Shown piece after piece: positions 18,701-20,862 of a stretch of 30,551 nucleotides of DNA (positions are counted from its first letter, which is position 1; each line of letters opens with the position of its first letter). This DNA is from a virus. The translations under genes and the position numbers were made by a program. The notes under the pieces are model-generated. The model was given only the letters and a program-made list of their open reading frames with translations. It was not told the DNA's origin and searched no databases. Location: positions 1 through 30,551 of IMG/VR virus record IMGVR_UViG_3300033183_000161; one strand, 5' to 3'.

Positions 18701-18725
18701 TATAGACATAATCGCGGAGGGCGTT

Positions 18726-20627
18726 ATGGACCAAAATAGATTCAAAGAAGGCGAGGTGATCCACCGATCTGTGGATTCTCGTGCTAAGGTTGTAGATGAA
18801 AAGAGTAGGGTTGTTCAGATGGCTATTTCGTCTGAACTGCCTGTTGAGCGTTACTTCGGGATGGAGGTCATTGACCACACCGAGGGCGCTATTGATATGG
18901 AATTCATCAGCAGTGGCCGAGCGCCTCTGCTTCTGGATCACGATCCTTCACAGCAAATTGGTGTGATCGAGCGTGTAAGCCTTGACAGTACTGCGCGTAG
19001 GCTACGTGCTGAGGTACGCTTTGGGAAAAGCGCACTTGCTGAAGAGGTTTTCAACGATGTGATTGACGGTATTCGTGGGAACGTATCTATTGGCTATCGC
19101 ATCAACAGTATGGAGGCGGATAATTCGCGTGATGATGGTACCTACTATCGCGTTCAAATTACGCCTCTTGAGGTGTCCATTGTTTCCATCCCGGCTGATA
19201 GTTCGGTTGGTGTTGGTCGCAGTGCGGCAGTTGAAAACACTTCAGAGGAGAAGAAAATGACTGAAGAAGTGCGTGAGAATGTCGCTGTTGAAGAGCCAGC
19301 TGCTGAAGAGGTTAAGGTTGAAGAGAAGCAGGAAGAGCAACGCTCTGAGCCTGCTGCTGCAGATCCAAAACCTGTAGAAGCGCCAGCTGTTCGTACAGTT
19401 GACTATCAAAAAGAGGCTAAGGAAATTCTTGCCATGGCGAAAGCCCACGGCAAGCGTGACTTGGCTGACAAAGCTATTGCAGAAGGTGCATCAGCTGAAG
19501 AGTTCCGCAAGGAACTGCTGGGTGCGCTTGAGCAGAAATCCATCAAATCTGTTGAGGTAAAGAATATGGAAGTGCAAGAGAAAGAAGTGCAGAACTACTC
19601 GCTTATGCGTTTGATGTCTGCTCTATCTACTGGTGACTGGCGTCATGCTGGTCTGGAACGTGAAGTATCAGACGAGATCGCTCACAAGATGGGCCGTTCT
19701 GCTGCAGGTGCATTCGTACCGACTAACATCGCGTGGAAGCGTGATATGACTGTCGGCACTGCTGGTTCAGGTGGTTACCTGAAGGGCACTGAGCACATGG
19801 GCAATGAGTTCTATGAAGCTCTGCAGGCTCGTTTCCCACTGACTCAGTACGGCGCGCAGATGATGTCTGGTCTGACTTCTGACGTGGCTATCCCTGGTCT
19901 GGGTTCTGGTGCGGCTGTTGGCTTCGTTGCTGAAGGCGGCGCTGTGTCTGAGCAGACTCCTACTACCAAGCAGGTTCTGTTGCAGCCCAAGACTATGGGT
20001 GCGTATGTTGACGTATCTCGTAAGCTCATGAAGCAGTCTGATCCATCGGTTGAAGCGGTGCTCCGTCAGGACATCATTCGCCGCATGGCTAACAAGCTGT
20101 ACCAGGTAGCTCTTGAGGGTGGCGGTACTAACGAGCCTAGCGGCATCATCGCTAACGCTGATACAAACGTTGTTTCTATCGGCACTAACGGTGGCGCTCT
20201 GACCTACGCTCACATCGTTGACCTTCTGAAAGAAGTTGACCTGCAGAACGCGCTTGACGGTTCTCTGGCCTTCGTTGCGACTCCTGGTGTCATGGCTAAG
20301 CTGCGCACGACTCCACGTCAGGCTTCTGGTGTTGAAGGTAACTTCATCCTTGAGCCGGGCAACCAGATCTTCGGCTACGATGTGGCTTCGACCACTCTGA
20401 TGCCTTCTGATCTGACTAAGGGCACTGGTACTAACCTGAACGCTATGCTGTTCGGTGACATGAGCCAGCTTATCCTTGGTATGTTCGGTGGTCTTGATGT
20501 TGTTGTTGACCAGTCTGCACTGGCGACTTCTGGCGGTTCACGCTTCGTGTTCCTACAGGATGTCGATGTAGGCGTTAAGCATGGTCAGTCTTTCTCTGTT
20601 GTGAAAGATATCGATCTAACTGCTTAA
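18726..20627 (+). CDS. Prohead protease - scaffold - major capsid protein fusion
   Basis: This 633-residue polyprotein carries head maturation and the capsid shell in one gene. Residues about 1-170 are an HK97-type S78 prohead protease with H72 (LLLDHDPSQQIG) and S121 (IRGNVSIGYRI) as catalytic residues, and the strand PLEVSIVSIPAD. Residues about 175-300 are an acidic, charged helical region, as expected for a scaffold/delta domain. The rest is an HK97-fold capsid protein (KDRD-like WKRDMTVGTAGSGGYLKG, VAEGGAVSEQTPTTKQ, then HGQSFSVVKDIDLTA). The start is ATG 18726, with GGAGG five bases upstream, rather than GTG 18693. Two internal ATGs with ribosome sites (19257 and 19566) fall at the domain borders. 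Confidence 0.92.
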   Translation: MDQNRFKEGEVIHRSVDSRAKVVDEKSRVVQMAISSELPVERYFGMEVIDHTEGAIDMEFISSGRAPLLLDHDPSQQIGVIERVSLDSTARRLRAEVRFGKSALAEEVFNDVIDGIRGNVSIGYRINSMEADNSRDDGTYYRVQITPLEVSIVSIPADSSVGVGRSAAVENTSEEKKMTEEVRENVAVEEPAAEEVKVEEKQEEQRSEPAAADPKPVEAPAVRTVDYQKEAKEILAMAKAHGKRDLADKAIAEGASAEEFRKELLGALEQKSIKSVEVKNMEVQEKEVQNYSLMRLMSALSTGDWRHAGLEREVSDEIAHKMGRSAAGAFVPTNIAWKRDMTVGTAGSGGYLKGTEHMGNEFYEALQARFPLTQYGAQMMSGLTSDVAIPGLGSGAAVGFVAEGGAVSEQTPTTKQVLLQPKTMGAYVDVSRKLMKQSDPSVEAVLRQDIIRRMANKLYQVALEGGGTNEPSGIIANADTNVVSIGTNGGALTYAHIVDLLKEVDLQNALDGSLAFVATPGVMAKLRTTPRQASGVEGNFILEPGNQIFGYDVASTTLMPSDLTKGTGTNLNAMLFGDMSQLILGMFGGLDVVVDQSALATSGGSRFVFLQDVDVGVKHGQSFSVVKDIDLTA

Positions 20628-20634
20628 TCCAGAT

Positions 20635-20652
20635 GGGGGCCTACGGGCCCCC
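20635..20652 (+). terminator. Stable UACG-tetraloop hairpin after the capsid gene
   Basis: A perfect 7-bp stem GGGGGCC/GGCCCCC (20635-20641 with 20646-20652) closes a TACG loop flanked by C and G. This is a UNCG-type tetraloop, an unusually stable RNA hairpin. It starts seven bases after the capsid stop. Only a weak T-rich stretch (TATTTCCTT) follows, so it is more likely a partial terminator or an mRNA 3'-end stabiliser that raises capsid yield than a full stop to late transcription. Confidence 0.6.
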
Positions 20653-20670: not shown

Positions 20671-20862
20671 ATGAAGATTAAATTCAAAGAGACAGCCTAC
20701 ACTTCAGAGGGTCGCGTTGACTCTGGTCAGACTGCTGACCTGAAGAGTGAAGAGGCAAAGATTTTTATTGATCGCGGTGTGGCTCTGCCTGCCGAGGTTG
20801 AAGCCCCAAAAACGACCACCAATCGTCAGGCGAAAACGCCAGCAAAGCGTAAGGGTGCATAA
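20671..20862 (+). CDS. Small head-region protein (DUF7210-like)
   Basis: This 63-residue protein has an N-terminal beta strand (MKIKFKETAYTSEGRVDSG), a DLKSEEAKIFIDRGVALP segment and a basic Lys/Arg/Ala-rich tail (KTPAKRKGA). The pattern 'kF......G....Ga.v.l...eA..li..GvA' is one I recall from small proteins encoded between capsid and head-tail joining genes (DUF7210). GGAGG precedes the ATG. The stop overlaps the next start by one base. Its function is not known to me; a packaging- or connector-associated role is inferred from position. Confidence 0.7.
   Translation: MKIKFKETAYTSEGRVDSGQTADLKSEEAKIFIDRGVALPAEVEAPKTTTNRQAKTPAKRKGA

Follow-up and report, generated by a model that had tools for sequence, protein, structure and literature searches.

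A conserved internal start signal in fused prohead protease-major capsid genes of tailed phages

Known head-protease genes and the fused gene in the window

In phages lambda (C/Nu3) and Mu (I/Z), a second protein, covering only the C-terminal part, is translated from an in-frame start inside the head-protease gene, and in herpesviruses (UL26/UL26.5) a protease-scaffold and a nested scaffold share one frame, the nested one having its own transcript. The nested product is a scaffold in lambda and Mu, where the capsid protein is encoded elsewhere, and that of UL26.5 has no capsid domain, unlike the predicted nested product described here, which would comprise a scaffold-like propeptide together with the capsid. 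The fusion of a prohead protease with a major capsid protein is already a named class in NCBIfam (NF045541/NF045540), joining the same two functions, and the model descriptions seen are silent on an internal start. Both this class and in-frame nesting within head-protease genes are established; no description of a capsid start nested in a fusion of this type was found in the literature searched (open-access only, most subscription papers lying outside it).

The gene under study lies in a 30,551-base virus record (IMGVR_UViG_3300033183_000161, positions 1-30,551; this whole stretch is referred to as the window), within a tailed-phage head/tail cluster comprising terminase large subunit, portal, the fusion gene, head closure, tail terminator, major tail protein, tape measure, and tail fibre. 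It shares its domain order, matching models, and capsid fold with the protease gp4 and the capsid gp5 of HK97, which are encoded by separate genes, whereas the window has one open frame without a stop and with the capsid start internal. The PF04586 match reached 36.6 bits against a cut-off of 21 (residues 55-164), the HK97-fold capsid domain PF05065 covered residues 357-627, and phrog_617 (fused major head proteins) matched end to end (E 2.3e-127, residues 19-629 on 18-624 of 626). The window pieces, scored separately against NF045541, gave 124.1 and 19.5 bits, far short of the curated cut-off of 525, which would make the gene a relative of that class more than one of its members. Residues H72, S121, and E149 of the protease were invariant in alignments A1 and A2, and H72 and S121 are presumably the catalytic His and Ser of the S78 protease. 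The cut in HK97 gp5, after its residue 103, maps through TIGR01554 to near window residue 333.

An AlphaFold2 model of the 633-aa protein (49 sequences, mean pLDDT 76.5) revealed a well-folded protease, low-confidence stretches at residues 168-218 and 338-360, propeptide helices at 222-241, 244-253, 257-272, 285-290, 293-302, and 309-322, and, on the C-terminal side, a capsid fold matching that of HK97 and, best, that of the roseophage R4C capsid (8gta). The latter belongs to phage vB_DshS-R4C, whose homologous capsid has a solved structure (8gta, PMC10276861) and is present in 415 copies (PMC10276861); by word search, the main text of that paper contains neither 'protease' nor 'cleav' (PMC10276861). 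The 8gta chain (268 aa) aligns from about window residue 349, an approximate border, as the chain may omit unmodelled residues. The features are collected in Table 1.

Table 1. Features of the fused gene, in positions of the window
Feature	Position	Strand	Basis
Fused prohead protease - delta-type propeptide - major capsid gene, 633 aa	18726..20627	+	Pfam PF04586 + PF05065; phrog_617; structure model
Shine-Dalgarno sequence (GGAGGG) of the full-length gene	18716..18721	+	Sequence; duplex -10.0
S78 prohead protease domain, residues 55-164	18888..19217	+	PF04586; TIGR01543; invariant H72, S121, E149
Shine-Dalgarno sequence of site 1 (AGAGGAG)	19244..19250	+	Sequence; duplex -9.1; kept in relative L002
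Delta-capsid precursor of 456 aa, predicted as a second product (site 1)	19257..20627	+	TIGR01554 match; conserved start
Helical propeptide (delta-like), residues 222-322	19389..19691	+	AlphaFold2 model helices
Site 2 (GAGGT + ATG 19566), SD-like match attributed to chance	19554..19568	+	Family comparison; SD ranking
Mature capsid part, from about residue 349	19770..20624	+	Alignment to PDB 8gta chain A

The internal start in fused and split relatives

A sequence-only reading of the window had proposed two internal starts in this gene, ATG 19257 (site 1) and ATG 19566 (site 2), yielding extra scaffold-capsid and capsid chains, and the coordinates, residue numbers, Shine-Dalgarno (SD) motifs, and spacings that it gave for both are correct. 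Site 1 (residue 178, with six nucleotides between AGGAG and ATG) is located, as had been proposed, at the protease/scaffold border, in a disordered linker that joins the S78 protease to the helices of the delta-type propeptide. Its duplex with the anti-SD of the 16S tail (-9.1 kcal/mol, compared with -10.0 at the gene's own start) ranks second after the gene start among the 40 in-frame ATG, GTG, and TTG codons of the gene. In the relative L002 (97% identity to the window), the codon ahead of the ATG is changed and one codon is inserted after it, with AGAGGAG and the ATG both kept. Upstream of site 1, there is a match to the HK97 protease model TIGR01543, and the product from site 1 matches TIGR01554 (HK97 gp5) over positions 19-384 of 385. 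The gp5 model is thus covered almost fully, as it is (from 17 to 380) by the capsid of L247, a relative with separate genes, which marks site 1 as the expected beginning of a free-standing gp5-type gene.

Fusions of this kind occur in many phages and prophages (at least 183 fused genes) and are mostly annotated as a single 'major capsid protein' or 'major head protein'. Each of 21 homologues aligned at the outset (identity to the window 29-43%) had a Met shortly past the protease, within linkers that were otherwise unalignable. The larger sample included 160 loci (L026-L185) from two scans with peptide patterns outside site 1, the best 80 per scan being kept; for six early loci and the S1-type loci, the pattern sets included the internal start (EEKKMTEE, QEHTMPQP), and these loci lean towards having it. 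Among the matches listed, 183 of the 185 sequences scanned had protease and capsid in one frame, those left out being L002, whose contig begins inside the gene, and L025, whose capsid was unmatched by the model. Thinning of the 183 fused genes to below 60% identity gave a non-redundant set of 79.

All the fused genes (183/183 among the matches listed) had an in-frame ATG no more than 65 codons beyond the protease, which alone is weak evidence, as 373 of 474 control windows also contained one. An SD of <= -4 at this ATG was found in 67/79 genes, compared with 90/474 control 65-codon windows (p 4e-30), which were of equal length, came from the protease and capsid parts, and had their best ATG likewise picked. 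Because picking the best-SD ATG biases the comparison, controls were run both with equal picking and without it: when the ATG was taken irrespective of SD, as the first one 9 or more codons beyond the protease, it had an SD of <= -4 in 66/79 genes, and the same threshold was reached at 124/860 control ATGs and 22/136 other linker ATGs. A conserved internal start codon with an SD, as expected of a nested in-frame start, was therefore found for site 1, and the proposal that ATG and ribosome site be conserved in relatives was borne out at this site. Across the 79 genes, the distance from the protease to site 1 was 7 to 65 codons (median 20), and the residue after the Met was S, T, P, E, or D in 68/79. 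In L181, the script chose the ATG at +57 and not those at +23 or +30; in L177, its ATG was that at +65, the likely start being a GTG at +16.

The SD at the chosen ATG was weak (> -4) in 12/79 genes, including that of cyanophage S-LBS1. In three Synechococcus phages, S-LBS1 (L012), S-CBS3 (L018), and S-CBS1 (L019), the Met after the protease is kept with no SD there, and upstream start candidates at these loci can carry one; their hosts are perhaps less reliant on SD. The relation between the SD at the own start and that at site 1, as a test of host dependence, was weak (rho 0.22, p 0.05) and was not used. In a wider set of 67 fused loci, read as 41 distinct linkers (L256 being the contig of L006), an ATG with an SD of <= -4 was present in 10/19 S1-type and 15/22 window-type linkers, and 16/41 were without one (9/19 and 7/22, respectively). 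The gene of the R4C homologue (L024) has the internal ATG with an SD of -9.5, in the E. coli phage Bas97, another relative, the site falls at residue 217, and distant fused genes with internal ATG and SD include those of Stenotrophomonas phage S1 (-6.6) and a Helicobacter prophage (-7.4). In addition, the fused gene L346, whose capsid is S1-like, reads MNKKLREMLI at an internal ATG that follows AAGGAG (SD -9.2); it was fetched with MNKKLREM among the patterns and leans towards having the internal start.

Two features were noted upstream of the protease. About 170-240 extra in-frame codons precede the protease match in L008 (985-1500), L010 (835-1500), L018 (781-1500), and L019 (889-1500), and CRP-823 (L009, 435-1500) has an additional ORF, annotated as a major capsid protein, between the portal and the fusion gene.

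Relatives in which protease and capsid are separate genes are broken at the same place, the protease stopping and the capsid starting at the location of site 1. In Dulem virus 34, the protease gene (37% identical to the protease of the window) ends 28 residues after VGVGR, and the capsid gene follows 15 nt after the protease stop in the same frame, with an SD of -12.0; this split capsid matches both NF045541 and NF045540. A survey of 160 loci gave 67 fused, 43 split, and 50 incomplete ones, the last being uncounted, as in many of them single queries missed one partner. Dropping identical protease tails from the 43 left 27 distinct split pairs, in which the protease ended 24-36 aa after the VGVGR-type motif. 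A capsid ATG with an SD of <= -6.2 at -4 to +19 nt from the protease stop was found in 19/27; for 7 others, no usable capsid start was picked, the capsid match lying only far downstream, and one had a 244-nt gap. Most of these pairs, found with the Dulem capsid as query, have a capsid type different from that of the window. In 7/27, both genes are in the same frame, indicating that only a stop separates protease from capsid. Moreover, L247 carries protease and capsid of the window's own types in separate frames, its capsid starting with MNKKLREMLI, the ten residues also present at the internal ATG of L346, as read from a single contig in which a sequencing error is possible. In L227 (IMGVR_UViG_3300038674_000026), the capsid ATG comes directly after the protease stop in the same frame, with the SD within the protease tail, a layout in which a single stop codon divides the split from the fused gene.

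Nucleotide-level evidence and competing explanations

The linker is rich in Lys and Glu, and its codons (GAG, AAG, GGA) might produce SD-like sequence as a by-product; all chains would then start at 18726, with the protease cleaving itself off and no internal initiation. Amino-acid choice could indeed account for much of the SD strength at site 1, as the mean under synonymous shuffling was already -4.10. The codons are nevertheless biased further towards an SD, the observed value being -6.34 (p 2e-11), and control ATGs showed the opposite, with observed SDs weaker than those of their shuffles. Selection was also evident when relatives were compared as 60 independent pairs, 48 of which had the site-1 Met aligned: in these, synonymous differences affected 20/93 at codons -5 to -2, compared with 11004/25308 elsewhere (p 1e-5), the latter made up of 9710/21752 in protease plus capsid and 1294/3556 in the rest of the linker. 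Furthermore, the mRNA is open at site 1, where the 50 surrounding bases fold at -5.0 kcal/mol, compared with -12.3 at codons drawn at random from the gene (site 1 being less folded in 76/79); other linker ATGs resemble the rest in folding (-12.1), and the gene's own start is at -6.3. L177 has GTG in place of the ATG of L117, with AAGGAG preceding both, suggesting that the start function was kept although the amino acid changed. Together with the split relatives, whose capsid gene starts here, these observations make it unlikely that the gene is translated from 18726 only.

It is also quite unlikely, and slightly less probable still, that both internal starts are active, with delta-capsid made from 19257 and a capsid with a short propeptide from 19566. 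Site 2 was put through the same tests as site 1 and was rejected as a start: its column is not conserved, its SD is unremarkable, and it is not at the mature border. Within the window, site 2 (residue 281, GAGGT at a spacing of 7 nt) does have a duplex of -6.9 and an open local structure (-2.6), and it sits between predicted propeptide helices, at the short low-confidence break 271-280. The duplex, however, only equals that of GTG 18771 and is near those of GTG 19944, GTG 19059, and ATG 18897, and 36/860 internal control ATGs in the family, about 4%, reach -6. Only 1/79 genes had an ATG at the exact column; 29/79 had one within 5 codons, 25 of them at the +2 column, which holds Leu more often than Met (41 L, 26 M); only 5/79 had an SD of <= -4 around the column. 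Retention of site 2 in L002 says little, given the 97% identity of that sequence to the window. Site 2 had been placed at a scaffold/capsid border, which proved wrong, as the R4C capsid aligns about 68 residues further on (about 52 by the HK97 cut mapped through TIGR01554). Its product, of about 353 aa, would lack helices 222-272, that is, most of the delta-type helices, and matches the gp5 model only from position 100 on. The proposal of two internal starts thus holds up, with strong comparative support, for the delta-capsid start at site 1, whereas the capsid-only start was not conserved beyond L002. Least probable of all, and very improbable, is an internal promoter just upstream of site 1 that would give the short chain its own message. 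A sigma-70-like match (9/12) exists at 19231-19258, but three such matches occur in the region, compared with 2.3 expected in shuffles, and this one overlaps the SD, so that the message would begin past site 1.

A two-product model

As judged from these sequence comparisons, the gene very probably makes two nested proteins, the protease-delta-capsid and a delta-capsid that starts at site 1. Initiation at ATG 18726 would give the full chain, and initiation at ATG 19257 on its own linker SD would give a delta-capsid precursor of 456 aa, the counterpart of HK97 gp5. The likeness to lambda C/Nu3 that had been drawn is apt as regards an in-frame start nested in the gene, but what this start would produce here is a whole gp5-type capsid precursor and not a scaffold. 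Proheads would be assembled from a mixture of the two chains, with the protease brought in on a fraction of the subunits, and the protease would later remove itself and the propeptide to leave capsid subunits from about residue 349. The gene most likely originated from an HK97-type pair, a protease gene followed by a capsid gene that had a ribosome site of its own, which lost the intervening stop codon and kept the capsid start, which would make it a clear example of gene fusion through stop-codon loss with the downstream start retained.

The earlier suggestion that nested starts relieve the protease excess of a 1:1 fusion is plausible, and site 1 alone would suffice for it. If site 1 works, it would offer a simple answer to how such a fusion avoids a protease on every subunit, and a second product would be absent from the annotation of all these fusion genes. 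The predicted strengths of the own start and of site 1 are similar (SD -6.47 and -6.38, folding -6.27 and -5.09, respectively), so an excess of capsid over fusion is not derivable from them. In addition, it is fairly probable that protease-capsid fusions generally encode two products, this holding for no fewer than two lineages whose capsids differ (the phrog_617 type of the window and the S1 type). The loss of the stop would be tolerated because the capsid start stays active, and the shells would be mosaics in which only some subunits carry a tethered protease, with the dosing set by the internal ribosome site.

Directly 3' of the capsid stop, a 7-pair all-G+C hairpin was detected at 20635-20652 of the window, and a terminator is annotated at the equivalent place in Burkholderia phage Mica (L022, 3421-3444). 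This hairpin may influence the level of the capsid mRNA relative to the downstream genes. Also 3' of the capsid gene, at 20671-20862, is an ORF of 63 residues belonging to phrog_2616, a family of unknown function.
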